Source: Rhodoglobus sp. (lineage in GTDB: Bacteria > Actinomycetota > Actinomycetes > Actinomycetales > Microbacteriaceae). Taken from it: a DNA stretch of 64,000 bases. The notes under the pieces were generated by a model. That model made no database searches, was not told the origin of the DNA, and saw nothing but the letters and a program-made list of their open reading frames with translations. The translations under genes and the position numbers were made by a program. Of the stretch, positions 10,077 to 27,760 are shown in pieces (the first letter of the stretch is position 1; each line of letters begins with the position of its first letter). Location: NCBI GenBank assembly GCA_025464445.1, contig JAODLY010000055.1, positions 1 to 64,000 of the forward strand, written 5' to 3'.

Positions 10077-10928
10077 CTACGGCGTTGTCGCACCGGCCGC
10101 GGTCGCCTCGACGAGCGCCTCGGACCATGATCTCATCGGTGCGAGCCCGACAGTTGCCCACCCGTCGTGCCCGAGCACGGAGTAGGCAGGTCGCGGGGCG
10201 GGGCGCACGAACGTCGAGCTGTCTGTGGGCCGCACCCGTTCGGGGTCCAGGCTGCTCGCGGCGAAGATCGCCCGCGCGAAGTCGAACCAGCTCGTCTGGC
10301 CCGAACTGGTGGCGTGATAGACACCAGCAGGGGCATCCGAATCCAACAGGGTCACTATCTGGTGCGCCAGGTCGAGGGTCCACGTCGGTTGCCCGACCTG
10401 GTCGGTCACGACGCTCACCACGTCGCGCTCCTGGGCGAGCCGGCGCATCGTCTTACCGAAGTTGGGACCGTGCGCGCCGTAGAGCCATGCGGTGCGAACG
10501 ATGTACGAGTTGTCAGGGTTCGCCGCGCGAACCAGCCGCTCGCCCTCGGCTTTCGTTCGCCCGTATGCGGACACGGGATGAAGCGGCGCGTCCTCTGGGT
10601 ACGGTGTAGTCGCGCTCCCGTCGAAGACGTAGTCTGTCGAAACCTGCACCATCCGTGCCCCGAACTCGGCGGCCGCGGCCGCGAGAATGCCGGCACCCAC
10701 GGCATTGACGAGGTGAGCCTCATGCTCCTGGCTCTCCGCGTCGTCGACCTTCGTGTACGCAGCGGCATTGAGGATCACATCGTGCCCTTCGACGGCGGCA
10801 CGTACGGCATCCCGATCGGTGATGTCGAGTTGGGACCTGCTGAGGGAGTCGACGTCACGTCCGGCCAGGGCGGCTGTGAGGTCGGTTCCGAGCATCCCGC
10901 TCCCGCCGACGACGAGGTAGCGGGTCAC
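10077..10928 (-). CDS. rmlD: dTDP-4-dehydrorhamnose reductase
   Basis: This 283-residue SDR enzyme performs the last step to dTDP-L-rhamnose. GGSGMLG (8-14) binds NAD(P)H, VSTDYVFDG is the family signature, and Tyr122/Lys126 in AYGRTKAEGE form the catalytic pair. TAWLYGAHGPNFGKTM follows as usual. The GTG start overlaps the rmlB stop (GTGA, 10925-10928), which fixes the start and indicates translational coupling. Confidence 0.93.
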   Translation of the reverse strand: MTRYLVVGGSGMLGTDLTAALAGRDVDSLSRSQLDITDRDAVRAAVEGHDVILNAAAYTKVDDAESQEHEAHLVNAVGAGILAAAAAEFGARMVQVSTDYVFDGSATTPYPEDAPLHPVSAYGRTKAEGERLVRAANPDNSYIVRTAWLYGAHGPNFGKTMRRLAQERDVVSVVTDQVGQPTWTLDLAHQIVTLLDSDAPAGVYHATSSGQTSWFDFARAIFAASSLDPERVRPTDSSTFVRPAPRPAYSVLGHDGWATVGLAPMRSWSEALVEATAAGATTP

Positions 10929-11908
10929 AGCGCTGCGCGTTCCTTGAGCGGCTCCCACCACGGGCGGTTGTCGCGGTACCACTGCACGACATCCGAGAGC
11001 CCCTGCGCGAAAGGGACGAGCGGCTCGTAGCCGAGCTCAGAGCGGATCTTCGAGATATCGACGGAGTACCTGAGGTCGTGCCCGAGCCGGTCCTGCACCC
11101 TGTCGACGTACGACCAGTCTTTGCCCGTGGCATCCAGCAGCAACTGCGTGAGTTCCTTGTTGGTGAGCTCCGTGCCGCCGCCGATGTTGTAGATCTCGCC
11201 GGCGCGACCGCCGGCCAGCACCATCGCGATGCCGCGGGTGTGGTCGTCGACGTGCAGCCAGTCGCGGATGTTGTTGCCCTCGCCGTAGAGCGGCACGTGC
11301 CTGTCGTCGATGAGGTTCGTGACGAACAGCGGGATGACCTTCTCGGGAAAGTGGTAAGGCCCGTAGTTGTTCGAGCAGCGCGTGATCGACAGGTTCAGGC
11401 CGTGGGTGCGGAAGTAGCTGCGCGCGAGCAGGTCGCTGCCGGCCTTCGAAGCCGAGTATGGCGAGTTCGGCTCCAGCGCACGGGTCTCGTCCCACGACCC
11501 TTCGGCGATGGACCCGTACACCTCGTCTGTGGAAACGTGCACGAAGCGCTTGAGGTTGTTGCGCAGCGCGGCATCCAGGAGCCTCTGGGTGCCGAGCACA
11601 TTGGTCTCCACGAAGATGCCGGAGTCGCGCACCGAGCGGTCGACGTGTGACTCGGCGGCGAAGTGCACGACGGCGTCGACGCCAGGCAACAACCTGTCGA
11701 GCAGGTCGGAATCGCGGATGTCGCCATGCACGAAGCTGTACCGCCCGGAGTCGGCCACCGGTGCGAGGTTCTCGAGGTTGCCCGAGTAGGTGAGTGCATC
11801 GAGCACGACCACCTCGGCGCCTTCCAGCCCAGGATACGCATCCTCAAGGGTTCGTCGAACGAAGTTCGAGCCGATGAAGCCGGCTCCGCCAGTCACGAGG
11901 ATTTTCAT
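10925..11908 (-). CDS. rmlB: dTDP-glucose 4,6-dehydratase
   Basis: This 327-residue enzyme turns dTDP-glucose into dTDP-4-dehydro-6-deoxyglucose. GGAGFIGSN (7-15) binds NAD. The catalytic Thr-Asp-Glu is in STDEVYG (127-129), and Tyr151/Lys155 lie in YSASK. RCSNNYGPYHFPEKVIP and EGNNIRDWLHV complete the signature. AAGGAG lies a few bases before the ATG. It is co-transcribed with rmlD but separated from rmlC and rmlA by a glycosyltransferase and the wzm-wzt pair on the other strand. Confidence 0.95.
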   Translation of the reverse strand: MKILVTGGAGFIGSNFVRRTLEDAYPGLEGAEVVVLDALTYSGNLENLAPVADSGRYSFVHGDIRDSDLLDRLLPGVDAVVHFAAESHVDRSVRDSGIFVETNVLGTQRLLDAALRNNLKRFVHVSTDEVYGSIAEGSWDETRALEPNSPYSASKAGSDLLARSYFRTHGLNLSITRCSNNYGPYHFPEKVIPLFVTNLIDDRHVPLYGEGNNIRDWLHVDDHTRGIAMVLAGGRAGEIYNIGGGTELTNKELTQLLLDATGKDWSYVDRVQDRLGHDLRYSVDISKIRSELGYEPLVPFAQGLSDVVQWYRDNRPWWEPLKERAAL

Positions 11909-13783: not shown

Positions 13784-14517
13784 GCGACATCGCCGTCAGC
13801 GTGAACCACGTCAGCAAGAGTTTCCGGCTTTACCATGAGCGCAACCAGACCATCAAGTCGGCAGTCATGCGTGGCCGTCGTTCGGTGCACGAGGATTTCT
13901 GGGCCCTCAGGGACGTCTCCTTCGACGTGCCAGCCGGCTCGACATTCGGCCTCATCGGCAGCAACGGCTCCGGCAAGTCGACGCTCCTCAAGTGCCTGGC
14001 GAACATCTACTACCCGAACGAGGGCGCGATCACGCACTTCGGCAGGGTGGCCGCGATGCTCGAGGTCGGCTCTGGCTTCCACTCCGAGCTGTCGGGCCGA
14101 GAGAACATCTTCCTGAACGGGTCAATCCTCGGGATGTCCAAGAAGGAAATCACCCGGAAGTATGAGGAGATCGTGGATTTCTCGGGCGTCGAGAAGTTCA
14201 TCGACCAGCCCGTCAAGAACTACTCCTCGGGAATGTACGTGCGGCTCGGTTTCGCCATCGCGATCAATGTCGACCCGGACATCCTCGTGGTCGACGAGGT
14301 GCTCGCCGTGGGCGACTCCGAGTTCCAGGAGAAGTGCTTCCAGAAGTTCGTCGACTTCAGGCGCGCGGGCAAGACCGTGATCCTCGTGAGCCACTCGATG
14401 GAGACGGTCAAACTCATGTGCGACCAGGCGGCCTGGCTCAGCCACGGTGAGCTGATGATCACGGGCGACGCCCAGCCGACCATCCAGGCCTACCAGGACT
14501 CGCTCGGACAGGGCTGA
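13780..14517 (+). CDS. wzt: Polysaccharide ABC exporter, ATP-binding subunit
   Basis: This 245-residue ATPase has Walker A GSNGSGKST (60-68), the signature SSGMYVRL (149-156), Walker B ILVVDE (168-173) and the switch histidine in VSHS (His205). It ends soon after the nucleotide-binding fold, so it lacks the C-terminal carbohydrate-binding domain of long Wzt proteins. It resembles the short TagH/RfbE-like core. The GTG start overlaps the wzm stop. Export probably does not depend on recognition of a modified chain end by this subunit. Confidence 0.92.
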   Translation: MSDIAVSVNHVSKSFRLYHERNQTIKSAVMRGRRSVHEDFWALRDVSFDVPAGSTFGLIGSNGSGKSTLLKCLANIYYPNEGAITHFGRVAAMLEVGSGFHSELSGRENIFLNGSILGMSKKEITRKYEEIVDFSGVEKFIDQPVKNYSSGMYVRLGFAIAINVDPDILVVDEVLAVGDSEFQEKCFQKFVDFRRAGKTVILVSHSMETVKLMCDQAAWLSHGELMITGDAQPTIQAYQDSLGQG

Positions 14518-14557: not shown

Positions 14558-15166
14558 GTGCAGGTCAGAGAGTTATCGATACCGGACGCCTACGAGATCA
14601 CCCCCCGGCAGCACGCGGATGACCGGGGCGTCTTCCTCGAGTGGTACCGCTTCGACCTCCTCGAGGAGGCCGTGGGCCACCCCCTCGATCTTCGGCAGGC
14701 CAACACGTCGGTGTCGCGCAAGGGCGTCGTCCGCGGCATACATTTCGCGACCCTGCCGCCCAGCCAGGCAAAGTACGTGACCGCGATGCACGGCGCCGTG
14801 CTCGACTTCGTCGTGGACATCCGCGTGGGGTCCCCCACGTTCGGGCAATGGGATTCAGTGCTCCTCGATACCACCGACCGCCGCGCCATCTACCTGGCCG
14901 AAGGTCTTGGCCACGCCTTCGTCGCCCTCACCGATGATGCAACGGTGAGCTACCTCGTCTCCGAGACGTACCTCCCCGGCGTCGAGTTCGGGATCAACCC
15001 GAGCGACCCGGAGGTCGCCCTTGAGTTCCCCGAGGTCGGCGGGTTGGTGCTGTCTTCCAAGGACACCGACGCGCCTTCCCTCGCCGAAGCGGCGGCGGCG
15101 GGGCTCCTTCCCAACTGGGACGATGCGCGCGCCTACTATGACTCCCTCGATAAGAGCGGGAACTGA
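14558..15166 (+). CDS. rmlC: dTDP-4-dehydrorhamnose 3,5-epimerase
   Basis: This 202-residue cupin enzyme epimerises C3 and C5 of the 4-keto sugar. The catalytic base is in RGIHF (His62) and the general acid in VSYLVSE (Tyr132), at the canonical positions. The GTG start is supported by the TAGGAT box six bases upstream. rmlA follows after two bases, so the two are one operon. Together with rmlB and rmlD on the other strand, the dTDP-rhamnose pathway is complete. Confidence 0.94.
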
Positions 15167-15168
15167 CG

Positions 15169-16026
15169 ATGCGCGGAATCATCCTGGCCGGCGGATCAGG
15201 CACCCGATTGTGGCCGATCACCCGCGGTATCTCGAAGCAGCTCATGCCGATTTACGACAAGCCGATGATCTACTACCCGCTGTCGACGCTCATGATGGCA
15301 GGCATCCGGGAGATTCTCATCATCACGACTCCCGAGTACAACGAGCAGTTCCGCGCGCTCCTGGGCGACGGCTCTTTGCTGGGCATCCGGCTCGAATACG
15401 CGGTGCAGCCATCACCGGACGGCCTCGCCCAGGCCTTCATCATCGGCGAGGAGTTTATCGGCGACGAGAGTGTCGCCCTTGTGCTCGGCGACAATATCTT
15501 CCATGGCATCGGCCTCGGTGCATCCCTGCGGGCCAGCGATGAGATGGACGGCGGGCTGGTCTTTGCTTACCACGTCTCCAATCCGAGCGCCTACGGCGTC
15601 GTCGAGTTCGACGACGAGCACAACGCGGTCTCGATCGAGGAGAAGCCCGAGAACCCGAAGAGCAACTACGCTGTGCCAGGTCTCTACTTCTATGACAACT
15701 CGGTCATCGAGATCGCCAAGGCCATCACGCCCAGCGCCCGCGGGGAGCTGGAGATCTCGACGGTCAACGAGCGCTACCTGCAGGCCGGCAAGCTCCGCGT
15801 GCAGATCCTCGATCGCGGCACCGCCTGGCTCGACACCGGCACGTTCGAGTCGATGATGCAGGCGTCCGAGTACGTCCGTGTCATCGAGGACCGACAGGGT
15901 TACAAGATCGGCTGCATCGAGGAGATCGCCTGGCGAGCGGGCTGGATCGACGACGCGGCCCTCATCGAGCTCGCCAAGCCGCTTGCCAAGAGTGGCTATG
16001 GGGAGTACTTGGCGCGCCTGCTCTGA
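15169..16026 (+). CDS. rmlA: Glucose-1-phosphate thymidylyltransferase
   Basis: This 285-residue enzyme makes dTDP-glucose from dTTP and glucose-1-phosphate, the committed step of the rhamnose pathway. [20 protein letters not shown] (about 8-27) is the nucleotidyltransferase loop, and LGDNIFHG carries the metal-binding aspartate. [10 protein letters not shown] and WLDTGTF further down are typical. It lies two bases after rmlC and ends three bases before the convergent bidomain GT gene. Confidence 0.95.
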
Positions 16027-16029
16027 GCC

Positions 16030-18240
16030 TCAGGCGAGGGCATCTACGAGAGCGGTGAAGTGCTCCCAGCCGTGTTGTGCTGCGGCGAAGTCATAGGCGG
16101 TCCGGATGATCTTCTGGCGTTCCTCGACGGAGCCCATGAGCTGCGTGATGGCGCGGACGAACCCCTCGGCGTCATCCGGGCTCGAGACCAGCAGGCCGGT
16201 CACGTTGTCGCGCACGATGTCGGTGACCCCGCCCACTGCGGTGGCGATCACCGGAAGGCCCAGCAGCATCGATTGCACGAGAACGAGTGGGAGGCCCTCG
16301 GACTCCGAGGTCAGCAGGAGTGCATGGTAATCGTGAGTCGGGAGCGCCTCGAGCCCACCCGAGTAGGGGCCGCGGTAGATGACGCCCGCCGCCGCGAGCG
16401 ACTTCATGAGCGTGGCGCCGTCGGAGGAGAGCACCTGCTGACCGTGCACCGAGATGCTCACCGGGAGGTCCTGCTTGCGCAAGAGCTCGGCGATCCGGAT
16501 GAGGGAGTCGGGACGCTTCTCCTTGTCGAGACGGTGCGGCCACAGCAGGCGGAAGGGATCCTGTTGCGTGAATACCCGGTCATCGTGTGCCCGGGTCGTC
16601 GTATTCAGCGGCGGGAGTGTCTCGAGCGCCGGCTGGTGGTGCACCCGCACCTTGGCGGGCCCGAGGGCGAGCATCTCCGACACGATCCCAGCGGTCACCG
16701 TGTTGTCGGTGATGATCCCTTCGATCTCATCGAGGTACTCGCGCTGGCCGTCATCCGTGATCGGGTTGACGGGGTAACCTGCGCCGATGCGATCGAAAGC
16801 GAAGAGCGTGAGATGGATGCGCATCGTGTCCGCGAGCTGGTGGCCGTAGAGGTGCAGCGAGTTGGTCACGTCGAAGCAGTTCACCGACACCACGAGTTCA
16901 GGGGCGACCATGAGGAGCGCCTGCGCGATGATCCGGCGCTGCTGGTTTGGAGTGAGGGAGCGAATCTCCTGTGAGACCTGGACGAAACGAACGCCCTCCG
17001 GCACGAGATGCTGCAGGGTGTTCGAGGGCGTGTACGTGGCGAGCATGGTGACGTCGCCCTTGAAGCGCGGGCTCGCCGCAAGCGCGCGCGCGTAGTTGAG
17101 GGAGACCAGGTCGGCACCGCCGATGCCGACCCAGGGCACGGCGACTATCGCACGCGGAAATGGCCGGAGTTGGGCGACGAGGTCGACAAGAATCTGCGCA
17201 TAGCCGTCAACGTACGGATGCCATTCAGGCACCATCCCGTAGCCGTTGGCCGTCCACGAGACGGCGGGTTCGATCTCGGCCGCACGCCTGAGGTGCTTGA
17301 CGACGGCGGGGGACACGTCTGCGGGCCTGCCCCTGTAGACACCCATCGCCCATCCGTAGAGACGTTCCTTGGTCGACTGCCTCAGGGAGCCGAGGAGCAG
17401 GCGCGCGACCGGCCGGGCGACGCGGTAAACCCCGCGTATGACCCGTTTGTTGCGGTCCCGTGCGGACGGCTCCTTGGGCGCCGGCGCGCCTACTTTGACA
17501 GGCATCGCGGAGATGAGCCCATCGAGGTCGAAGGGCGGCAGGATCGAGCGCAGGTGCCCGTTGTTAACGCCACCGAACGCCCGCACCCGGTAGAAGAACA
17601 TGGTGCCGGGGGCTGGGCGGTGGGAGATACCGGCGATCGAGGTCTCGATATTCCACAACCAATCCTCGGGGCCGAACCCATCACCGGGGCGAATTGCCCG
17701 GTATGGATTGTCAAGGTACGTGGAGCGAAGGGATATCGAGGACGACGGCCACAGGTTGTTGCGGATCAACAGGAGATGATCGACGTCCTCGGTGGCCGGG
17801 ACAGTCCAGATCGCTGAGCGATCGCCGAAGCTGACCACCGTGGCGGGATGCACGATGATCGGGGCCTCGGACGCCTCGAGCGTGCGCACCCCCTCGACGA
17901 GGTAGTTGTGGGATACGAGGTCGTCGCCGTCGCAGAACGCGACGAACCGACCCCGGGCGTTGGTGGCCCCGGCGTTACGACTGGCCCCGGCGTCCCCGTG
18001 CGAGACCTCGATGAGACGCACGGGGACCACTGCGCGATCAGGGTCGAGCCACAGCGTCGCCTCCGCGAGCGTGTCGGGCGTGGCCCGGTCCAGCACGATG
18101 ACCAGCTCGCAGTCGCGAGCGGTCGCGGTGACCTCCTCGATCGCTGCCATTAAACTGCGCAGCGTGGGCCGCAGCAGGCGCCCCTCGGAGTGCACGTTTA
18201 CCACGACCGAGAGGGTGATGCCGCTCGCCTCATTAGTCAT
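16030..18240 (-). CDS. Two-domain glycosyltransferase (GT2 + GT4)
   Basis: This 736-residue protein joins two transferase folds. Residues about 8-250 are GT-A: LSVVVNVHSEGRLLRPTLRSL, GASRNAGATNARG and FCDGDDLV with the DxD-type acidic motif. Residues about 390-736 are GT-B: IGGADLVSLNYARAL, LWPHRLDKEKRPDSLI and SESEGLPLVLVQSMLLGLPV with the EX7E-like region. Such proteins can add two sugars in sequence. An AGGA-type site precedes the ATG at 18240. Donor sugars are unknown. It is convergent with rmlA with only three bases between stops. Confidence 0.82.
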   Translation of the reverse strand: MTNEASGITLSVVVNVHSEGRLLRPTLRSLMAAIEEVTATARDCELVIVLDRATPDTLAEATLWLDPDRAVVPVRLIEVSHGDAGASRNAGATNARGRFVAFCDGDDLVSHNYLVEGVRTLEASEAPIIVHPATVVSFGDRSAIWTVPATEDVDHLLLIRNNLWPSSSISLRSTYLDNPYRAIRPGDGFGPEDWLWNIETSIAGISHRPAPGTMFFYRVRAFGGVNNGHLRSILPPFDLDGLISAMPVKVGAPAPKEPSARDRNKRVIRGVYRVARPVARLLLGSLRQSTKERLYGWAMGVYRGRPADVSPAVVKHLRRAAEIEPAVSWTANGYGMVPEWHPYVDGYAQILVDLVAQLRPFPRAIVAVPWVGIGGADLVSLNYARALAASPRFKGDVTMLATYTPSNTLQHLVPEGVRFVQVSQEIRSLTPNQQRRIIAQALLMVAPELVVSVNCFDVTNSLHLYGHQLADTMRIHLTLFAFDRIGAGYPVNPITDDGQREYLDEIEGIITDNTVTAGIVSEMLALGPAKVRVHHQPALETLPPLNTTTRAHDDRVFTQQDPFRLLWPHRLDKEKRPDSLIRIAELLRKQDLPVSISVHGQQVLSSDGATLMKSLAAAGVIYRGPYSGGLEALPTHDYHALLLTSESEGLPLVLVQSMLLGLPVIATAVGGVTDIVRDNVTGLLVSSPDDAEGFVRAITQLMGSVEERQKIIRTAYDFAAAQHGWEHFTALVDALA

Positions 18241-18494
18241 CGTGTAGTTCCTCGTCGTCTGTCCATAGTGATTCGCGGCATGGCCGTGCTCAGCCAGGCG
18301 CCCCCGGATGTCGCTGGTTCGCGCGACCCGCCCCAGCGAGTGGCTGGCGATGGATCCTCCGATGCCGGCCCGCTACGGTGCTGTCATTCTCCATGATGTG
18401 ACATTGAGGATCCTGAGTGTCTCCTGTCGGGCGGCGTGCAGCCGCCGTGCACTCGAGCATTATCGTCATGGCCCGCGGCTCCGCTTTGGTTATC
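18241..18494. other. 254-bp spacer between two leftward glycosyltransferase genes
   Basis: No gene was recognised. A short hairpin (GGCGGC 18430-18435 with GCCGCC 18441-18446) may end the upstream GT2 transcript, and the promoter of the bidomain gene should lie in the remaining part. No clear -10 could be assigned. Confidence 0.4.
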
Positions 18495-19451
18495 TCAGCC
18501 ACCGTTCGGGCGATTGGCAATCCGACGCGCAAGGGTCCTCATGACCGTACGAAGGGGCTTAGTGAGTTTCCACGAGGTGCTGGCGCGCAACTGGTTGGTT
18601 TCCTCCCTCGCGTCGCGAAGGTCGGATTCCAGGTTCGCGATTTTCTCTCGGGCACGGCTTTCGACCTCCAGGTGATGTCCGATAGCACCGACCATCGCCA
18701 ACCGCCAGGCGCTCTTGAACTCAGATGGCACATGGCTGCTGATGAAGATGCGCGCCTCGACTTCGCGGTCAAAGCGCTCGGCTCTGGTGAGTGAGGCCCA
18801 AATATTCGTGTCGTGGATCCGGTACGCCGACATTGGACGGTCGATGAACGCAAGGTCGTGGCCTGCGGCGGTGAGTGACCAGAGGGGATAGTCACCCACT
18901 CGCAGGTCATTGAACCCCTCGGGCATTGGGCGCGGTAGCCAGTCGGCCCGTAGCACGACGGATGACGTTGAGATGACGTTCTGCTCCGTGAGCGCGGAGC
19001 CCGGCAGAATTTCGGTGCGATATCTTGCTGGAGGCCAATCCCCCGCTTTGAGTTCGCCAGAGACGAACTCCAGCACGGGGTGGTGACAGATCGCGGCGCT
19101 CGGCAATCTGTCGAGTGCATCCACTTGCCGCTGGAGCTTCTCTTGGTCGAGCCAGAAGTCGTCGCCGTCGAGGATCGCGACGAACTCGGCTCGGCTGGCG
19201 GCGATGAACTCGTAGTAGTAGTAGATGCCGGACTGATACCGGTTCACAGGAGCGACGACAAGTTCCCAACTGATCGAGGCACCCGACAGGAGGCCGGTGA
19301 TCCTCTCGACCGTGCCGTCTGTGGATGCGTCATCGTGGATGCGGATGGCGATCTCGAAATCGGTGCTCTGGTCGAGGACTGATTGCAGGGCGCGCTCGAT
19401 GAACGACTCATGGTTGTAGGTGAAGACGGCCACCTCAAGACGCGCTGGCAT
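18495..19451 (-). CDS. GT2 glycosyltransferase with C-terminal STSW motif
   Basis: This 318-residue GT-A protein starts EVAVFTYNHESFIERALQSVL, then HDDASTDGT and ILDGDDFWLDQEKL with the DxD acidic residues. A predicted coiled coil (residues about 265-290, EKIANLESDLRDAREETNQL) leads to ASTSWKLTKPLR, a short motif found at the end of many bacterial surface-glycan transferases. It is the last gene of the DegT / ATP-grasp / methyltransferase unit, seven bases after the methyltransferase, so it may transfer the sugar made by those enzymes. Confidence 0.82.
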   Translation of the reverse strand: MPARLEVAVFTYNHESFIERALQSVLDQSTDFEIAIRIHDDASTDGTVERITGLLSGASISWELVVAPVNRYQSGIYYYYEFIAASRAEFVAILDGDDFWLDQEKLQRQVDALDRLPSAAICHHPVLEFVSGELKAGDWPPARYRTEILPGSALTEQNVISTSSVVLRADWLPRPMPEGFNDLRVGDYPLWSLTAAGHDLAFIDRPMSAYRIHDTNIWASLTRAERFDREVEARIFISSHVPSEFKSAWRLAMVGAIGHHLEVESRAREKIANLESDLRDAREETNQLRASTSWKLTKPLRTVMRTLARRIANRPNGG

Positions 19452-19458
19452 CCGAGTA

Positions 19459-20007
19459 CTACTTGACCGCGACGATGTTGTAGTGGATAGGCATGAGGAA
19501 GCGGCCTTCGGTCTCGAGAGCTGATATCGCGACGTGCGAGAACGGGGATGCCAGCTGCCGCCAGCCGTGCTCCGAGAACCTCCAGTTGTCGGGCAGGGGG
19601 CCGTGGATGCGAAAGTTGAACGGCGCGGAGAAGTAGGCGCGGCCGCCCGGTTTGAGCATCCGGTGGATTTCGGCTACTCCCAGGAACGGGTTGGAGACGT
19701 GCTCGAGAACCTCGGTGCAGATGACCATGTCCAGGGATGCATCCGCGACGTCGTCGTTGCGTCGGCAGATGTCACCGATAATGTCCGCGTCAGAGTCGGG
19801 GTCGATGTCCAGTGTGCGAAGCCGGGCGGGCGCCATGAGGTGTGGACGTATCCCGCCGTGATCCTGGGGGGCGATGTCGAGGATGAGGCAATCGTCGATC
19901 GTGCTCGCGACCGCGGCAGCCTCGGCGAAGAGGCTTGCTACGTGATCCCGGAGCAGAGTGAGGTGCAGTTTGTCCATGGTGCTGACGGGGGGCGTTTCAC
20001 TGGGCAT
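19459..20007 (-). CDS. Class I SAM-dependent methyltransferase
   Basis: This 182-residue protein has a Methyltransf_11-type fold. LILDIAPQDHGGIRP stands in place of the usual glycine-rich motif I, LRTLDIDPDSDADIIGDI follows, then MVICTEVLEHVSNPFLGVAEIHRMLKPGGRAYFSAPF. The degenerate first loop (DIAPQDHG) is unusual, but related SAM enzymes of polysaccharide loci share it. It overlaps the ATP-grasp gene by 11 bases and probably methylates a sugar or aminoacyl-sugar intermediate. The substrate is not known. Confidence 0.75.
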   Translation of the reverse strand: MPSETPPVSTMDKLHLTLLRDHVASLFAEAAAVASTIDDCLILDIAPQDHGGIRPHLMAPARLRTLDIDPDSDADIIGDICRRNDDVADASLDMVICTEVLEHVSNPFLGVAEIHRMLKPGGRAYFSAPFNFRIHGPLPDNWRFSEHGWRQLASPFSHVAISALETEGRFLMPIHYNIVAVK

Positions 20008-21298
20008 CGAATAGCCATTTCAGTTGGTTGGCGGAGCTCGCGTCGACGGCAAGCGTGTTCGGGTGGGAGGCGGCAACGCGCTCGCTGAAGGAATCATCGA
20101 TTAACACCGAATTGCCCTCCGCGGCTATGAAGGACATCTTGGGCTCCCCTTTCGTGGCATGGAAGACCCGGTCGAACAGATCTGCAAGGCCGAACTCGGC
20201 CAGCGTCACATCCGGATCCTTAAGGTGCCGTGTGACAAGCGCCACCGGGATCCCCCTCGCTTTGACGAAGCGCACCAGCTCTTCCACGGGAGGGTTGATC
20301 GCGCCGTTCAGGATCAGGGTGTCATCCAGGTCGACGTAGAGGGAGGTGAAGCGCTCAATGCAGTGCACTTCGGAGATGCCCTGTGCTCGCCGAGCGGTGA
20401 ATCGAAATCGTGTCTGGTACACGCGCACGGGCAACTGGCCAGCGGTGAGGATCGAAAGTTGTGCGAGGTTGACGCCTTGGGCTCGCCGAATCCCGGACGC
20501 CCCCGCGAGCCTCGCACCGATCTCCATGAGGCGGTAGACGCCATGCACGTCCTTCTTCGCCTGGAAGAACCAGGCACCGTTGAAGGTCAAGCGCCTGCCG
20601 ATCACCTCGGCCATTCGTACAAGGTCGTCGTCCTTGCGGTCGCTGGTGACCACGGCGATGCCGCCGTCGGTCTCATCCCGCGTCCGCGGTGCGGCATACA
20701 GCAACCCACCGGGCGTTGAGAAGCAATCAACGGTCACTTCGTCCGAGACGAGCATCTCCGTGACCAGGTGGTTCGACCAGAAGCCCGGCGTCGCTTCCTC
20801 CAGCTCACGCAATGACGACGGGTCTTGGACGGCGACCGCGCCGATCGCGCTGTGGCTCACGTCGGGCTTCGCGAACAGTGGAAACGCGGCGTTACCGGGC
20901 TGCGCCAGCACTCGCTCGGGGGTGATCCCGAGTGGTTCGAACGTTTCGTGCGTTGCGATTTTCGACGCCGCGATGAGGATCGTCTCGGGGGGGTGGGACA
21001 CGACTGTCGCACCGTCGAGATTGATCTGGGACAGCGCGAGGATTGCCAGGTCATTCGCCGGATAGACGTAGTCAATCGAATCGCGCCCGACAAGTTCAGC
21101 CAGAGCGCCGGGGAAGTCGGCGTCGTCGACGTGAGGAAGGTGGTCGTACTTCGCGTACCCGGCGCGATGTCCTGCTGCGGCGTCCACACCCGCACCCTGC
21201 ACGATGAATCCGGGTAGAGGCGACAGGCTTGCGAGTACTTCGATCCCCACCAGCGTCGTGCCGGGGAAGACCAAAACCTTCTTATAACTCGCCGTCAT
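19997..21298 (-). CDS. ATP-grasp / HAD phosphatase fusion protein
   Basis: This 433-residue protein has two parts. Residues about 1-305 resemble carbamoyl-phosphate-synthase-like ATP-grasp ligases: LFAKPDVSHSAIGAV for ATP binding, VTEMLVSDEVTVDCF, and YRLMEIGARLAGASGI with the metal-binding Glu and Arg. Residues about 318-433 are a HAD domain with DLDDT (nucleophile Asp323, acid Asp325), LVTRH as motif II, and Lys/AspAsp near 383-395 (KMSF...LIDDSFSER). It could couple a carboxylate to an amine through an acyl-phosphate, then hydrolyse a phosphate. ATG 21298 overlaps DegT by 17 bases; in-frame upstream codons lack family sequence. The precise reaction is unknown. Confidence 0.72.
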   Translation of the reverse strand: MTASYKKVLVFPGTTLVGIEVLASLSPLPGFIVQGAGVDAAAGHRAGYAKYDHLPHVDDADFPGALAELVGRDSIDYVYPANDLAILALSQINLDGATVVSHPPETILIAASKIATHETFEPLGITPERVLAQPGNAAFPLFAKPDVSHSAIGAVAVQDPSSLRELEEATPGFWSNHLVTEMLVSDEVTVDCFSTPGGLLYAAPRTRDETDGGIAVVTSDRKDDDLVRMAEVIGRRLTFNGAWFFQAKKDVHGVYRLMEIGARLAGASGIRRAQGVNLAQLSILTAGQLPVRVYQTRFRFTARRAQGISEVHCIERFTSLYVDLDDTLILNGAINPPVEELVRFVKARGIPVALVTRHLKDPDVTLAEFGLADLFDRVFHATKGEPKMSFIAAEGNSVLIDDSFSERVAASHPNTLAVDASSANQLKWLFDAQ

Positions 21299-22373
21299 CG
21301 AGGAAACGTTCGAGAAGAGTCCTAATGCGGTTGAAGTCGGATGACTTGAGACCCAGGTGGAATGGCAGGCCGAGAACGGTGGCTGCGTAGCCCTCGGTCC
21401 GGTCGAGGCGTCCGCGCGGGATGTCATGGTACGCGGGCATGGTGTGGCAACCGTCCCCCCACCACCGGCGGGTCTCCACACCGCCCACCTGAAGGAGGCT
21501 CTCCAGGCGCGTTCTCGCGGCCTGGTCTTCGAGTTGGATGTTCCAGTAGGGAGCAGCGAGATCGCTCTCGACTCCGGCCGCCGTGAGACCCATGCTGGAG
21601 GAGATCTCCTGGGCGCGCTGACGCAGCTCTAGCCACTGCAGCCGCTGCGCAGGCCAGGCGTCCAAGGATGCGTGCGCTACTGCAGCGGTGAGCTCGCTCA
21701 TCTTCGCGTTGGTGCCCGGAATCTGGCTGACGCGCGAACCCCACATGCCAAAGTTCGACCACCGGCGGAACTCGGCTACCCACGCCTCGTCGTTTGAGAA
21801 GAACACTCCGCCCTCGCCAACAGGAAGAGCCTTGGTGGCGTGGAGGCTTACGATCACGCCGACCTTACGATCTTCTGGAAACGCAAAGTCGCGACAAGCG
21901 TCGAACGAGGCCGCGGCATCGACGAGGACTGTCTGCCGCGGAGCTCCGCTCCGGTACCAGTCGGCGCGTGCGCCGAAGGGAAGTACATCCACGGCCAGGG
22001 ATGTATCGGCGGGGAAGTCGGCTCGCTGGGACTCGTCCACGTCGACGAAGGTCGGCTGCAAGCCGGCGCGCAACGCGGAACCGGGAGTTGCCGTGAAGGT
22101 CCACGATGGCAGGTGCACGGGCGAACCGGCGCTCGATACCGTGGCGAGTGCACCCTCGAGAGCCGCGGTGCCAGACGAGCACATCGCGACGCGCGAAGCG
22201 GGAATATTGAAGTGGCCGGCCAGCCGTTCCTCGAGCCTCGTGACCAAGGGCCCACCATTGGAGAACTGTCCGCTGCGAGTGGCCTCGTCGATGTAGAAGC
22301 CGATCTTCTCGCTCGAGGGAAACACGGGCAGGAAGACCGGGATGACGCCGTCGTTCAGATCTCTTACCTGCAC
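21282..22373 (-). CDS. DegT/DnrJ/EryC1/StrS-family PLP aminotransferase
   Basis: This 363-residue protein belongs to the sugar aminotransferase family that puts an amino group on a keto-sugar nucleotide. SSGTAALEGAL (67-77) binds the PLP phosphate, Asp152 in LVDAAAS contacts the ring nitrogen, and Lys181 in HATKALPVGEGG forms the internal aldimine. The end (GLPFHLGLKSSDFNRIRTLL) is typical. GTG 22373 lies exactly six bases after TATGCT, so it is preferred over the ATG at 22394, which would lie upstream of the predicted transcription start. It heads a four-gene leftward operon. Confidence 0.8.
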   Translation of the reverse strand: MQVRDLNDGVIPVFLPVFPSSEKIGFYIDEATRSGQFSNGGPLVTRLEERLAGHFNIPASRVAMCSSGTAALEGALATVSSAGSPVHLPSWTFTATPGSALRAGLQPTFVDVDESQRADFPADTSLAVDVLPFGARADWYRSGAPRQTVLVDAAASFDACRDFAFPEDRKVGVIVSLHATKALPVGEGGVFFSNDEAWVAEFRRWSNFGMWGSRVSQIPGTNAKMSELTAAVAHASLDAWPAQRLQWLELRQRAQEISSSMGLTAAGVESDLAAPYWNIQLEDQAARTRLESLLQVGGVETRRWWGDGCHTMPAYHDIPRGRLDRTEGYAATVLGLPFHLGLKSSDFNRIRTLLERFLDDGEL

Positions 22374-22379
22374 CGCTAG

Positions 22380-22385
22380 AGCATA
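22380..22385 (-). promoter_or_regulatory. -10 box for the leaderless DegT operon
   Basis: TATGCT on the minus strand, six bases before GTG 22373. It is divergent from the SMR-like gene promoter. Confidence 0.55.
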
Positions 22386-22457
22386 TCTCCCCAATGTGCC
22401 GGGCCGAGGTCAGGCACGGATCGCACCCTTTCGGTCGAGGCATCATGGGCCGCCCGA

Positions 22458-22463
22458 TAGGGT
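22458..22463 (+). promoter_or_regulatory. -10 box for the SMR-like gene
   Basis: TAGGGT is followed by eight bases and the GTG at 22472. This spacing supports the short form of the protein. Confidence 0.5.
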
Positions 22464-22471
22464 GGCTTCTT

Positions 22472-22834
22472 GTGAAATGGTTGGTCCTTCTGCTGGGTGT
22501 GCTGCTGAATGCCAGCGCGAGCATCCTCATCAAGGTGAGTTCCATGCCACCCAGGAAGCTGCCTTCATTCTCGACCCCGGTGTCGGCGTGGATCGGCAAC
22601 TGGCCCTTCTGGGTGGGGATTGTCACGTACGGGCTCGCCTTTCTTGCATACGTATACTCACTGAGCCTGTTCCCCGCCACGGTCGCCCATCCGATCATCA
22701 CGGCGGGCGGCATAGCTCTTGTCGCCACTATCGCCGGTCTCGTGCTTGGAGAGTCGCTCAGTGTTTTGACCATCGCCGGAGTGATCGTCGTCATGGGCGG
22801 GGTCATCATGATCGCCCTGGGCGCACAGCGTTAG
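22472..22834 (+). CDS. Small four-helix DMT/SMR-type membrane protein
   Basis: This 120-residue protein has four predicted membrane helices. It starts KWLVLLLGVLLNASASILIKVSS, has the family sequence FLAYVYSLSLFPATVAHPIITAGGIALVA, and ends GVIVVMGGVIMIALGAQR. Similar proteins (ArnE/ArnF-like) flip undecaprenyl-phosphate sugars rather than drugs. It is followed by a GT2 membrane transferase, a methyltransferase and a GT39-like transferase, which favours the flippase role. GTG 22472 was chosen from the TAGGGT box; a start at 22445 would add a basic extension. Confidence 0.75.
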   Translation: MKWLVLLLGVLLNASASILIKVSSMPPRKLPSFSTPVSAWIGNWPFWVGIVTYGLAFLAYVYSLSLFPATVAHPIITAGGIALVATIAGLVLGESLSVLTIAGVIVVMGGVIMIALGAQR

Positions 22835-22850
22835 AGCAGCGAGAGAATAC

Positions 22851-23873
22851 ATGTCGATCGCGCCCGAATCCCGAACCGTCTCCGCCAGCGTCAAGGCGGT
22901 TCCGCTGGCCATGTGGGGTGTCCTGCTCTTCTGCGGCGGGGTGTTCGTCTTCGTGGTTGCCTCCCTAATCAACCTGCCCATCCGGATAGTGCTCCCCAGC
23001 GCGGACTCGGTGTTCCGCGATATCGTGTGGCTGTCGGGGGCACCGATCGTCTTGGGCACTCTCTTCATCCTCGCCGACTTCGCCTTCTTCTATCGGGCTC
23101 GCCGGGGCGGCCACGAGCTCTCGCGGGTGGAGGTCGACCGCTCCGCTGTGACGGTCGTGCTCACCGCCTACAACGACGAACTGAGCATCGCCGAGGCGGT
23201 TCGTGACTTCCGTGACCACCCGCTGACGAAGCGCGTGATCGTCGTCGACAACAACAGTTCGGATGGGACCGCTCGGGCGGCGGAGGAGGCGGGCGCCATT
23301 GTCGTGAGCGAGCTGCGACCCGGATACGGATACTGCGTCCACCGCGCCCTCACCGAGGGATCCCGTTACCAGGACACCGCCCTCGTAGCACTGTGCGAGG
23401 GAGACATGACATTCCGCGCTGCCGACCTGGAGAAGCTGCTGGCCTACATCCCCCATGGCGACGTCGTCAACGGCACCCGTATCGTCGAGCAACTCCGCGA
23501 GAAGGTCACCCAGCTCACGACCTTCATGTTCTGGGGCAACTTCGTGGGCGGTAAGCTCCTCGAGTTCAAGCACCTCGGGCGCGGAACGGTCACCGACCTC
23601 GGCACCACCTACAAGTTGTGCAGGTCGGCTTTTCTGCGTGACCACCTCGCCGACTACGATCCGAGTGTGAACCTCGAGTTCAACGCCCACTTCCTCGATC
23701 TCACCATGAAGAACGGGTTCAAGCTCGTCGAGGCCCCCGTGACGTTCTACGCGCGCGTTGGGGAGTCGAAAGGCGGGAACGTCAGCAATGCACGTGCCAC
23801 GCGCGTCGGCCTGCGCATGCTCCTCGGCCTCCTGGTCTCGTGGAAGCTCATCCGAACGAAGGGAACCGCGTGA
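22851..23873 (+). CDS. Membrane-anchored GT2 (polyprenyl-phosphate glycosyltransferase-like)
   Basis: This 340-residue protein has two N-terminal helices (about residues 18-40 and 62-80), then a GT-A domain: VTVVLTAYNDELSIAEAV, VVDNNSSDGTARAAEEAGA, GYGYCVHRALTEGS and LCEGDMTF with an acidic EGD in place of DxD. The pattern fits DPM/GtrB-like enzymes that charge a polyprenyl phosphate. It starts 17 bases after the SMR-like gene and overlaps the next gene by GTGA (23870-23873). Confidence 0.8.
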   Translation: MSIAPESRTVSASVKAVPLAMWGVLLFCGGVFVFVVASLINLPIRIVLPSADSVFRDIVWLSGAPIVLGTLFILADFAFFYRARRGGHELSRVEVDRSAVTVVLTAYNDELSIAEAVRDFRDHPLTKRVIVVDNNSSDGTARAAEEAGAIVVSELRPGYGYCVHRALTEGSRYQDTALVALCEGDMTFRAADLEKLLAYIPHGDVVNGTRIVEQLREKVTQLTTFMFWGNFVGGKLLEFKHLGRGTVTDLGTTYKLCRSAFLRDHLADYDPSVNLEFNAHFLDLTMKNGFKLVEAPVTFYARVGESKGGNVSNARATRVGLRMLLGLLVSWKLIRTKGTA

Positions 23874-24538
23874 GCGACTCTGACTTTGCAAACGTCTACT
23901 TCGACAGCCGGTTGAAGTTCGACAGGAAACGGCTCGTGCTGTGGGGCGCCCTATGGGACTACTCGCTGAGCCGCGTCATGAAGGGGTCCTCGACCATCCT
24001 CGAGCTGGGCGCGGGGTGGTGTGACTTCATTAACAATGTGACGGCACCTCGCCGCATCGCCGTCGACCTGTGGCCTGGCATCATCGAGGCGGCCGCCGAG
24101 GGCGTCGAGGCGCACGTCGGCCCGGCCGAGGACCTCGACTTCCTGAGTGACGGCACCGTCGACGCGGTCTTCGCGTCCAACTTGGTGGAGCACCTCACTC
24201 ACGAGCAGTTCGACGCCATCCTCTCGGAGTCGCGCCGAGTGCTCCGCCCGGGCGGCAAGGTCGTGTTCGTGCAGCCCAACTACCGGCTCGCGTACAAGCG
24301 CTACTTCGACGACTTCACCCACGTGAGCATGTGGAGCGAGGTGTCGCTGTCCGACTTTTTGTCGTCGCGCGGTTGGATCATCGAACGCGCACAGGCCCGG
24401 TTCATGCCGTTCTCAGTCAAGTCGCGCCTTCCCGTGTCCCGCTTCCTCATCCGCTGTTACCTCGCATCGCCGCTCAAGCCGATGGCCGGGCAGATGCTCG
24501 TTGTGGCCAGCGCGCCCGCCGGGGACAGCGGGCGATGA
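23870..24538 (+). CDS. Class I SAM-dependent methyltransferase
   Basis: This 222-residue protein has ILELGAGWCDFINNV (motif I), RRIAVDLWPG, GPAEDLDFLSDGTVDAVFASNLVEHL and RRVLRPGGKVVFVQPNYR. Its GTG start overlaps the upstream GT2 stop, and its stop overlaps the GT39-like start by ATGA (24535-24538). The tight coupling suggests it methylates a sugar handled by these transferases, but the substrate is not visible. Confidence 0.82.
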   Translation: MSDSDFANVYFDSRLKFDRKRLVLWGALWDYSLSRVMKGSSTILELGAGWCDFINNVTAPRRIAVDLWPGIIEAAAEGVEAHVGPAEDLDFLSDGTVDAVFASNLVEHLTHEQFDAILSESRRVLRPGGKVVFVQPNYRLAYKRYFDDFTHVSMWSEVSLSDFLSSRGWIIERAQARFMPFSVKSRLPVSRFLIRCYLASPLKPMAGQMLVVASAPAGDSGR

Positions 24539-26334
24539 CGGAGGCCGTTCGGACAGGCCCGTCGTCCCCGATGTGGGGCGCGATCAGACACGCGCTTCTC
24601 ACGGCGCGCGTGGGTCCGCTTCAGGGCGGCGGCCTCTGGGGGAGCATCGGGATAGTCCTGGTGTACCTCGCGATCGCCATCCCGCAGTACGGCCAGCCGT
24701 ACGTGATCGATGAGGCGGTTTTCCCCTACGTCGCCGACGGGATTCTGAAGCACGGCGCTCCGATCTTCTACAACGGTGAGACCCGACCGATGGACGTCGG
24801 GCTCTGGCACCCGCCGCTGTACGACTACTTGCTCGCCCTCCAGGTGTTCGTGTGGGGCATGTCCCCGTTCGCGGTGCGCGCGTTCGGCTCGCTCTGCGTC
24901 GTCGCGTCGTTCTTGTTGCTCGCCCTCGCGCTGCGTCGGGTGGCACCGGGCATCAAGCAGTACGGGTACGTCGTGCTCGCAGCGCTGTTCCTGCTCAACC
25001 CATTGGTCATTGGCGACGCGCTCGTGCCCGACATCGACGGAACACTGGGCCTCTTCGTGGTCGCCCTCGGCTTGTGGGTCGCGACGCTCGTCGCCCAGAG
25101 TCATCTCACACCGCGGTTGGTCCTGGTGGTATTCGCCTTCGCCACCCTCGCAGTGTCGACCAAGTACATCATCGCCGCGATCATCGCCGTATTCATCGGG
25201 TGCGCGGCACTCATCTCACCGGCAGAGCGATGGTGGAAGGCCTTGTGGGTGGTGGTTGCGTTCGCCGCTGGCACCGTCATCTCCTTAATTCTCCTGTTCG
25301 CGACCGGATATCTCGTGGGCTTCGACGCTCGCGGGCCGTTCGTCTATCTCTTCGGCTCCCTGGGCAGCCGCGCGCCCGGTCGGTCGGGCCTCCACGGCGC
25401 GCTCATCAATCTCGCGGAGGGCCCCGGCTCCAATCTCGTGTGGATCGGTCCTGCGCTCGTCGTCGCTGCTGTCGTGGCAGCGGTCGCCGTGTTCGTCGCT
25501 CGCCCCCTGGCAGTGAGCAGGCCGCTCATGCTCCTCTTCGCTGGCGGGGGAGTAGCCGTCATCCTGGGGTACGCGTACATCACGGCGAGCCCGTTCGGCT
25601 TCCCGAAGTACACGGCGATCGCAGTCGCTTCGCTCGCCCTCGCGGCCACGGTGCTCGTCGAGGTGCTGCGCACCAAGCTCCCGGCGCAGAGCGAACGGGG
25701 GGCCGGCGCCCGGATCACGGTGATCGTCGGGTATATCGCGGTGCTCGGCCTGGGTGTCGCGGGCATGTTCTGGCTACTTTCCCGCTTCGCGCCACTGCAG
25801 CCGCGGCTTCTTCAGAACCTGCTGGCAGTCACGGTCCCCGCGTTCGTCGCGGTGGTGGTGGTCTCGGCCCTTGTCGTGTTCATCCTTTGGCCCGCTGCCG
25901 GACGCGCAAAGCGCGCTGCCGTGGCCGGCGTTCTCGCTGCGGCGATCATCACCCCGGTCATGGTTCAACTCAGCTCTTCGCTCGTCGATCTCACGTCGCC
26001 CTTCGCGACCAGGTACTACTACGGCGAGCGGGGAATGGCCGAGTTCCTCGCTCGCGCTGACGACGTCATTCCCGCGGGCGCCGCGGTCATCGCTCCCAAG
26101 GATGTCGGGCTCCAGCTCGGAAGGCCATTCTACGAGGACGCCTCTTTTCTTGGCCTCACCCCGTCGAAGCTGCGCTCGGAGCTCGCTCGAACCGAAGCGC
26201 CCTACCTCGTGACCCGCAGTTTGTGGGACTATTCGGAGAGCGTCTTCCCGGCGCAGTTCGACGTGCTCCGGGAGTTCTACGAGCCGGTGTTGGTGGACTC
26301 CGCTCTGGACTTCACGCTCTGGAAGCTCAAGTAG
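24535..26334 (+). CDS. GT39/ArnT-like membrane glycosyltransferase
   Basis: This 599-residue protein has about 12 predicted helices. IDEAVFPYVADGIL just after the first helix carries the Asp-Glu pair of GT-C enzymes, and GLWHPPLYDYLLALQ is the typical PMT_2 loop. Such enzymes move a sugar from a polyprenyl-phosphate donor to an acceptor outside the membrane. With the SMR-like protein and the GT2 upstream it forms a complete charge-flip-transfer set. The C-terminal soluble part (residues about 510-599) is typical in size. Confidence 0.82.
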   Translation: MTEAVRTGPSSPMWGAIRHALLTARVGPLQGGGLWGSIGIVLVYLAIAIPQYGQPYVIDEAVFPYVADGILKHGAPIFYNGETRPMDVGLWHPPLYDYLLALQVFVWGMSPFAVRAFGSLCVVASFLLLALALRRVAPGIKQYGYVVLAALFLLNPLVIGDALVPDIDGTLGLFVVALGLWVATLVAQSHLTPRLVLVVFAFATLAVSTKYIIAAIIAVFIGCAALISPAERWWKALWVVVAFAAGTVISLILLFATGYLVGFDARGPFVYLFGSLGSRAPGRSGLHGALINLAEGPGSNLVWIGPALVVAAVVAAVAVFVARPLAVSRPLMLLFAGGGVAVILGYAYITASPFGFPKYTAIAVASLALAATVLVEVLRTKLPAQSERGAGARITVIVGYIAVLGLGVAGMFWLLSRFAPLQPRLLQNLLAVTVPAFVAVVVVSALVVFILWPAAGRAKRAAVAGVLAAAIITPVMVQLSSSLVDLTSPFATRYYYGERGMAEFLARADDVIPAGAAVIAPKDVGLQLGRPFYEDASFLGLTPSKLRSELARTEAPYLVTRSLWDYSESVFPAQFDVLREFYEPVLVDSALDFTLWKLK

Positions 26335-26344
26335 CGGGTAGCGA

Positions 26345-27760
26345 TCACCGCAGGGTGACTGCGCCGATGCCGCCGGTGACGGTGATGGTGCCGCCCTGGA
26401 ATGTCTGCGTGTAGTTACCGGTGGTGGGGGCGGCCGAGGGTGCGCTGGTCGGGAATCCGAGGACGTTGAGTTCGCGGCCGTACCAGCCCCAGTTCTGCAC
26501 GACGACGGTTGGCAGGGCGTAGACACCGCTGGGGCTCTGCACGACCCATCCGTTCTGGAAGGCCTCGTAACAGGCGCCACCCTTGAGCGTGCAGGACTTG
26601 GCCTGGATCGATGAGCCGAGCCAGGTAGAGGACTGCACGGCGCTCGTCCAGGCATCCGGAGCGACGGCTACGGCACCGACTCCTCCCGTCACCGTGATGG
26701 TGCCGCCCTGGAATGCCTGCGTGTAGTTGCCGGCGGTCGGGCTCGCCGAAGGCGCTCCCGTGGGGAACCCTAGAGGACCGAGTTCGCGGCCGTACCAGCC
26801 CCAGTACTGCACGACGAGCGCGGGGACCGGGACGACGACGTTGGTGCCCTGGACTACCCACCCGTTCTGGAACACCTGGTAGCAGACTCCGCCGGTGAGA
26901 GTGCACGACTTGCCTTGCGTCGATGAACCAAGCCAGGTGGCGGACTGGATGGCGGACGTCCACGGGTCGGGCGGCAGGGTGACCGCGCCGATGCCGCCGG
27001 TGACGGTGATGGTGCCGCCCTGGAATGTCTGCGTGTAGTTACCGGTGCTGGGGGCGGCCGAGGGTGCGCTGGTCGGGAATCCGAGGACGTTGAGTTCGCG
27101 ACCGTACCAGCCCCAGTTCTGCACGACGACGGTTGGCAGGGCGTAGACACCGCTGGGGCTCTGCACCACCCATCCGTTCTGGAATGCCTGGTAGCAGGCG
27201 CCGCCCTTGAGTGTGCAGGACTTCGCCTGCGTGGACGAGCCGAGCCAGGTAGAGGAGAGGATGGTGCCGAGCCACGGGTCGGTGCTCGCGGTCAGCGCGC
27301 CCGCACCGTTCGTGACCGTGATGGTGCCGCCTTGGAAGGCCTGCGTGTAGTTGCCGGTCGTGGGACTCGCCGATGGCGCACCGGTGGGGAACCCGAGGAT
27401 GTTGTATTCCCGGCCGTAGGCGCCCCACGTCGAAAGCACCGCAGTCGGCACCGCGACGACGCCGCCTGCGCTCTGCACTAGCCATCCGTTCTGGAAAGCC
27501 TGGTAGCAGGCTCCGTCCTTGAGCGTGCACGACTTGGCCTGGATCGACGACCCGAGCCAGGGTGACGTCAGGATGGTGTTGAACCACGGGTCGGTGTACG
27601 AGGTGACGGCGCCGACGCCGTTAGTGACCGTGACTACGCCGCCCCGGAACGCCTGCGTGTATGTCGCGGCAGTCGGGTCCGTGGCGCTGCCAATCGGAAG
27701 GCCGAGGACGCCGGACTCGCGGTTGAGGGAGGCCCAGACGTCGCGGACGGGATTCGGCAT
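26345..27760 (-). repeat. Five 312-bp (104-residue) tandem repeats inside the LGFP gene
   Basis: The same 'gtgatggtgccgccctgg'-type block recurs at 26382, 26694, 27006, 27318 and 27630 (the last diverged), an exact 312-bp period. Each unit encodes WLGSS...KSCTLK.GACYQAFQNGW and a LGFPT...NYTQ.FQGGTITV pair. The first and third units are nearly identical in DNA and more alike than adjacent units, so a two-unit (624-bp) duplication or conversion is likely. The outer ends are approximate. Confidence 0.85.

Follow-up and report, generated by a model that had tools for sequence, protein, structure and literature searches.

The stretch of DNA analysed here (the window; 64,000 nucleotides of contig JAODLY010000055.1 from Rhodoglobus sp.) contains a four-gene operon on the minus strand whose first two genes encode a DegT-type aminotransferase and a protein that fuses an ATP-grasp domain to a small haloacid dehalogenase (HAD)-like domain. 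Together these two genes form a conserved, widespread and apparently undescribed module, the N-acylation of amino sugars being itself known. The module is broader than was proposed in the original prediction, a note made from the sequence of the window, and the four-gene set of the window recurs in several phyla. The probable product of the operon is a 4-amino-4,6-dideoxyhexose that is N-acylated and methylated and becomes part of a surface glycan.

The four genes are tightly packed, with overlaps of 17 and 11 bases and a gap of 7 as first described, and the frames of all four are open. The first gene (21282..22373) starts with GTG and encodes a DesI/VioA-like member of the DegT/DnrJ/EryC1/StrS family of pyridoxal phosphate-dependent aminotransferases (PF01041, 2.9e-34), with the catalytic lysine in the motif SLHATK. 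It is followed by the fusion gene (19997..21298), a gene for a small class I S-adenosylmethionine (SAM) methyltransferase (19459..20007; PF08241, 2.8e-9; motifs LDIAPQxHxG and FNFRIHGPLPDxWRF), and a gene for a family 2 glycosyltransferase (GT2; 18495..19451; PF00535, 1.9e-15), which probably transfers the modified sugar. The family calls for the aminotransferase, ATP-grasp domain, methyltransferase and GT2 were all borne out above Pfam thresholds. The original prediction also placed the operon behind a leaderless promoter, and this part did not hold up: its basis is a single weak -10-like hexamer, TATGCT (22380..22385, minus strand), read 7 bases before the GTG of the DegT gene, and a scan of 18200-22900 for sigma-70 promoters returned 0 sites, with 0.6 expected by chance.

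By sequence profile and predicted fold, the N-terminal part of the fusion protein (about residues 1-303; PF15632, 1.4e-17) is a carboxylate-amine ligase-type ATP-grasp domain. The predicted structure of the whole protein has a mean predicted local distance difference test score (pLDDT) of 92.6 and a predicted template modelling score (pTM) of 0.91, and comparison of the model with known folds identified the ATP-grasp fold, with 2pn1 and PylC nearest. The best solved matches of the family profile are 2pn1, whose function is unproven, followed by the L-amino-acid ligase 3vot, VanA/Ddl and PylC; PurK and biotin carboxylase also appear with this fold in the profile and fold comparisons. The domain thus matches carboxylate-amine ligases, the chemistry proposed for it, rather than an enzyme of unrelated metabolism. 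Against the carbamoyl-phosphate-synthase-like equivalog PRK12767 (NF009402) the window protein scored 68.9 bits, below the curated 218 bits. Residues K113, K144, E187, E259 and N277, which we take to be the ATP-grasp active-site residues, occur in 77/77 aligned homologs, that of the window included.

The assignment of the C-terminal part (about residues 305-433; 20000..20386, minus strand) as a HAD domain stands on its motifs, the domain itself falling under the Pfam cut-off (PF00702, 4e-4, 21.3 bits against a cut-off of 26.4; 22.2 bits for the domain alone). The HAD motifs DxDxT, S/T, K and DD are all present in the window protein, as DLDDT (D323, D325), T356, K387 and D401-D402, which we presume to be motifs I to IV, respectively. 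D323, K387 and D401 are conserved in 77/77 homologs, as is T/S356, with D325 in 76 and D402 in 75. In the predicted model, strands alternate with helices, and the motifs are placed where strands 319-322, 352-356 and 397-400 end. Only one of the 77 homologs, the window's own, had a HAD half detected by Pfam at E<=0.01, so that databases are likely to list the family as plain ATP-grasp proteins. The HAD part had no significant match in the PDB by sequence profile, and fold comparison of the whole model gave no HAD entry among the 50 matches listed, all of which were taken by ATP-grasp entries. The fused proteins form a group of their own, as the HAD part is absent from all 28 of the unfused 2pn1/PRK12767/PF15632-type homologs tested and W243 and F244 are a signature of the fused family (77/77 fused, 0/28 unfused). 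An arginine cluster was considered as a fused-only sign of a phosphorylated substrate and was set aside because R205 also occurs in 24/28 unfused homologs and R207 in 12/28.

The association of the two genes was assessed in 82 relatives' loci, comprising the best 80 of 178 from a scan of genome contigs together with Cupriavidus metallidurans CH34 and G135, a genome from the phylum of the window. When open reading frames (ORFs) around the fusion gene were clustered by all-against-all BLAST, a DegT gene of one cluster was found in 71 of the 82 loci and in 54 of the 56 that had at least 4 kb on both sides. One of the 71 is doubtful (L115, with 13/35 conserved DegT columns changed and a branch of 6.31), and 9 of the 11 loci that lacked DegT had less than 4 kb on one side, which leaves L063 and L120 as real exceptions. 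The two genes thus occur together widely in other genomes, as the original prediction requires. All but one of the 71 pairs are on the same strand, and 39 are separated by less than 120 bases, 22 of these overlapping, a count that may be too high as ORFs were started at the first start codon. As controls we used 38 loci from the same protein searches, of which 28 were confirmed by profile as ATP-grasp homologs and none had an ORF of at least 150 amino acids that matched the HAD profile; three (L030, L034 and L035) had entered through weak matches reaching into the HAD part. A DegT gene lay within 1.5 kb of 62/82 fused homologs and in 1/38 control loci, with the same count by tblastn when the locus's own query was excluded, and this distance gives the fair comparison because 37 of the control loci span less than 4 kb and the other 12.9 kb. 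Protein distances of the fusion protein and DegT were correlated with r=0.50 in 72 loci and 0.70 in a set of 42, in which the correlations with GT2 (one per locus, taken as the first member of its cluster) were 0.31 for the fusion protein and 0.20 for DegT; all three correlations in the 42 loci exceed those of all, or almost all, shuffled sets, and shared descent therefore contributes to them. A chance neighbourhood of the two genes is made unlikely by the control loci and the distance tests.

What sugar the module may act on is suggested by the kinship of the aminotransferase. DesI (TIGR04427) is the best curated family of the window DegT, of all 9 paired DegTs tested and of E. coli VioA. The best solved relative of the window DegT is 2po3, which we take to be CalS13; to our knowledge, 2po3 and DesI serve secondary-metabolite sugars and have no ligase partner. 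The lysine column of SLHATK is K in 72/72 DegTs. In a quick DegT tree, E. coli VioA pairs as sister with the Buttiauxella DegT (L107; support 92), nested in a group of 14 rows (95). The window DegT falls with L050 and three Methylobacterium proteins (99) and has G135 as a neighbour; all of these have long branches. In the E. coli O-antigen locus (L124), rfbB, rfbA and vioA stand together, with vioA followed by an ordinary acyltransferase gene and then a cytidylyltransferase gene, whereas in Buttiauxella the ATP-grasp/HAD gene takes the acyltransferase's place. This exchange is the best hint that the ATP-grasp/HAD protein N-acylates the sugar. RmlA and RmlB genes both occur in 11/82 loci; in 10 of them, no RmlC or RmlD was detected within the identity limits applied, which fits deoxythymidine diphosphate (dTDP)-4-keto-6-deoxyglucose as the branch point.

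The set of four genes, and not only the pair, recurs. In 11 of the 82 loci (G135, L045, L049, L050, L054, L061, L074, L079, L097, L103 and L104), the gene immediately after the ATP-grasp/HAD gene encodes a methyltransferase of the window's type, with 48-60% aligned identity and, in ten aligned over the whole length, 44-51%. The order ligase, methyltransferase, DegT, GT2 is found in L049, L054 and L097, as well as in L045, where the methyltransferase was detected by tblastn only. Weak methyltransferase matches in L057 and L066 are not adjacent to the ligase gene. The same families stand together in unrelated phyla, and the grouping thus exceeds chance. Among 396 genomes of the phylum, strong methyltransferase matches were confined to the window's own genome and G135 (412 and 169 bits), with 18 others at 62 bits or less.

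From this gene set and from the kinship of its products we infer the following pathway, which agrees with the scheme of amination, acyl ligation, methylation and GT2 transfer in the original prediction. RmlA and RmlB would provide dTDP-4-keto-6-deoxyglucose, and DegT would aminate C4 to give dTDP-4-amino-4,6-dideoxyglucose, a sugar of the dTDP-viosamine (Qui4N) type. The ATP-grasp domain would then use ATP to convert a small carboxylic or amino acid to an acyl phosphate and join it as an amide to the 4-amine of the sugar, and the HAD domain would remove, or transfer, a phosphate from the acid or the product. The methyltransferase may cap either the sugar or the acyl group, perhaps before the GT2 transfers the finished residue. 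The pathway draws attention to a large unnamed enzyme family found next to VioA-type aminotransferases in loci for polysaccharide export and flagellin and in teichoic-type loci. It predicts amide-linked acids, overlooked by present gene annotation, on many surface glycans. Were the reaction established, it could guide annotation in many phyla, and the enzymes could serve to prepare acylated amino sugars.

A more specific version of the ligation step, which we put forward tentatively and regard as somewhat unlikely, is that the ATP-grasp domain joins a phosphorylated acid, such as phosphoglycerate or phosphoserine, to the 4-amine of the dTDP-sugar and that the HAD domain then strips the phosphate, which would have been a handle for selection and release. 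If so, the fusion protein would be a two-step enzyme new to glycan chemistry and a third general route of decoration beside acyl-coenzyme A transferases and formyltransferases, in use across bacteria and perhaps in methanogens.

Several observations weigh against the proposal that the operon makes an N-acylated 4-amino sugar. We found no reaction of a HAD-fused member in print. The case for a HAD domain is built on motifs and on the topology of the model, profile comparisons with shallow reference alignments being not decisive. Beyond the part played by shared descent in the distance correlations, the adjacency of the two genes could partly reflect shared glycan loci, and RmlA or RmlB is near in only 12/82 loci. 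Other acyl enzymes can sit near the module: two neighbour clusters represented by a hexapeptide acyltransferase were seen in 6 and 4 loci, respectively, and a WbqC cluster in 2, that of Cupriavidus among them. The window DegT scored 115 bits on TIGR04427, under the cut-off of 650 (next family, 67), a cut-off that is too narrow for the wider family since E. coli VioA itself reaches only 312 bits. Finally, the copies in the window are divergent. The window DegT has a branch of 2.92, and the window fusion protein is the longest branch of 83 in a quick tree (3.98; median, 0.45). The fusion protein deviates at 7 of 62 conserved columns, including E209 for Arg and, in the glycine-rich ATP loop, S148 and S150, where 76/77 and 73/77 homologs have G; T14, L16 and S185 are further changed residues. 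The window copy may use a different acid or be less active.

An alternative to ligation directly onto the sugar is that the fusion protein builds or frees an acyl unit, such as a dipeptide or a dephosphorylated acid, which another enzyme attaches. Homologous ligases (3vot and Ddl) make free dipeptides, and in type B Clostridioides difficile, according to the accessible parts of the reports, the authors' candidate for the sugar acylator is a FemAB-type acyltransferase, with an ATP-grasp protein and a dehydrogenase producing the peptide (PMC5207246, PMC5207245). The acyltransferase clusters near some relatives would also suit a separate attachment. The operon in the window, however, has no acyltransferase gene, and in Buttiauxella it is the ATP-grasp/HAD gene itself that occupies the acyltransferase's position, and we consider this alternative unlikely.

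Alternatively, the window copy may have lost or changed the family activity, in which case the operon would be decaying or making another product. The divergence of the fusion protein and of DegT described above is what this predicts, as is the lack of a full-length fusion homolog in any of the 59 other genomes of the window's kin. On the other hand, the operon consists of four open and coupled frames, the five ATP-grasp residues (K, K, E, E and N) and all HAD catalytic residues are kept, the methyltransferase is as similar to those of ten relatives as noted above, and the pLDDT of the model is high, and we consider a lost or changed activity quite improbable. The idea that the group added by the ATP-grasp domain has a single carbon (formate, or a carbamoyl or carboxyl group, as in PurT- or carbamoyl-phosphate synthase-like reactions), yielding an N-formyl or N-carbamoyl amino sugar, and that the HAD domain hydrolyses an intermediate, is very improbable: the best curated families carry a carbamoyl-phosphate-synthase-like name and PurK and biotin carboxylase have the same fold, but the best solved matches after 2pn1 are an amino-acid ligase, VanA/Ddl and PylC, and N-formylation of such sugars is usually the work of formyltransferases.

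Our preferred reading, N-acylation of a 4-amino sugar by the fusion protein, has partial parallels in described systems, which are compared here as far as the accessible parts of the sources describe them. The viosamine island of Pseudomonas syringae (vioA, vioB, vioR, vioM, vioT) makes an N-acyl, O-methyl viosamine; as in the pathway proposed for the operon in the window, an aminotransferase acts, the 4-amine is N-acylated, a methyl group is added and the sugar has a transferase of its own, and VioT requires the modified N-acyl group (PMC3927599). It differs in that acylation proceeds via an acetoacetyl stage and is blocked in a vioR mutant, and the accessible text mentions no ATP-grasp/HAD protein (PMC3927599). 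No separate N-acyltransferase or reductase, as in that island, was found in the operon or in the 11 other window proteins scanned with Pfam. The flagellin of type B C. difficile carries Fuc3N with an amide-linked taurine-containing peptide, and the peptidyl-amido end is missing in an ATP-grasp mutant (PMC5207246, PMC5207245). The responsible genes (CDR20291_0244-0247) likewise encode a DegT-type (FdtB-like) aminotransferase and an ATP-grasp protein, but the sugar is Fuc3N rather than a 4-amino sugar, no HAD domain is mentioned in the accessible text, and the additional FemAB and ornithine cyclodeaminase-like proteins are absent from the four-gene operon. In Dickeya, a flagellin cluster (Dda3937_03419-03424) has a nucleotide-sugar transaminase adjoining a 'carbamoyl phosphate synthase', together with a methyltransferase and transferases, and differs in carrying an oxidoreductase (PMC6637903, PMC7575072). 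Deletion of Shewanella SfmE, which contains an ATP-grasp domain, changes the mass of flagellin (PMC3765264). The term ATP-grasp is absent from the accessible text of a survey of enterobacterial flagellin islands (PMC4875605), and the accessible parts of PMC9834719, PMC9933511 and PMC11915815 hold nothing on an ATP-grasp/HAD fusion. In the part of the open literature that was covered, we found no description of a HAD-fused ATP-grasp protein beside DegT; subscription papers lie mostly outside it, which leaves priority unsettled.

The fused family is widely distributed. Fifteen phylum-level groups are represented among the titled rows of the quick tree, and 7 of the 83 rows, the window's included, fall in none; since many relatives are metagenome bins, individual phylum assignments may be in error. 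Archaeal members come from genome bins of Methanosarcina (L057) and Methanobrevibacter (L089). A near full-length homolog (30% identity, 93% covered) is encoded on the megaplasmid of C. metallidurans CH34. Close to the window the family is sparse: in 60 genomes of kin (own included), the one full-length match was in the own genome, with partial matches in eight others, and the 396 genomes of the phylum (own included) held one further full-length homolog, that of G135 (41%). The fusion protein had no match in 50,697 phage records or in IMG/VR, where the scan reaches close relatives only; a phage or viral origin was rejected, the sole viral trace being one partial match with the relative L053.

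The loci of the relatives have varied glycan contexts. Neighbour clusters, each named from one representative, include Wzx-type proteins (19 loci), ABC permeases (15), LicD (11), tetratricopeptide repeat (TPR)/GT41 transferases (9), CDP-glycerol glycerophosphotransferases (7) and flagellin (6: G135, L011, L055, L058, L077 and L110). In L045, L049, L054 and L097 a GT2 follows the module's DegT. In Buttiauxella (L107:2900-11657, flg-like by reading) and Enterobacter (L110:9995-18588) the module lies in flagellar regions with a gene of the cytidylyltransferase cluster, and these are likely flagellin glycosylation islands. Beside the module in L055 (12086-14288), a radical SAM/SPASM protein precedes a TylF-type methyltransferase that is extended at its N-terminus, and both clusters also occur in L051 and L073. 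A supposed second ATP-grasp protein in Gallionellaceae loci proved to be this type of extended methyltransferase.

In the window, the operon lies within a glycan region with RmlA/B/C/D-like genes, an ABC-2 transporter and several glycosyltransferases. An ABC-2 permease and ATPase pair (12947-14517, by Pfam) is flanked on one side by RmlD-like and RmlB-like genes (10077-11908, minus strand) and on the other by RmlC-like and RmlA-like genes (14558-16026, plus strand), the Rml-like genes being named by reading. The transporter suggests that the product is a wall or surface polysaccharide. The RmlA-like glucose-1-phosphate thymidylyltransferase (15169..16026, plus strand), a possible source of dTDP-glucose, has copies with 58-65% identity in 11 relatives' loci, and the RmlB-like dTDP-glucose 4,6-dehydratase (10925..11908, minus strand), a possible source of dTDP-4-keto-6-deoxyglucose for DegT, has copies with 46-49% identity in 12. 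A two-domain GT2-GT4 glycosyltransferase (16030..18240) lies 254 bases from the operon on the same strand and may serve the same glycan; it has matches in only 6/82 relatives' loci.

On the other side of the operon, a divergent set on the plus strand (22445-26334) begins 71 bases from the DegT start and encodes a small EamA/SMR-like membrane protein, a GT2, a class I methyltransferase and a 599-amino-acid protein without a Pfam match; this set could serve in the flipping and transfer of a lipid-linked sugar. It is followed on the minus strand (26345-29092) by a gene for a 915-amino-acid protein with LGFP repeats (PF08310, 163.6 bits), which is repetitive by eye.

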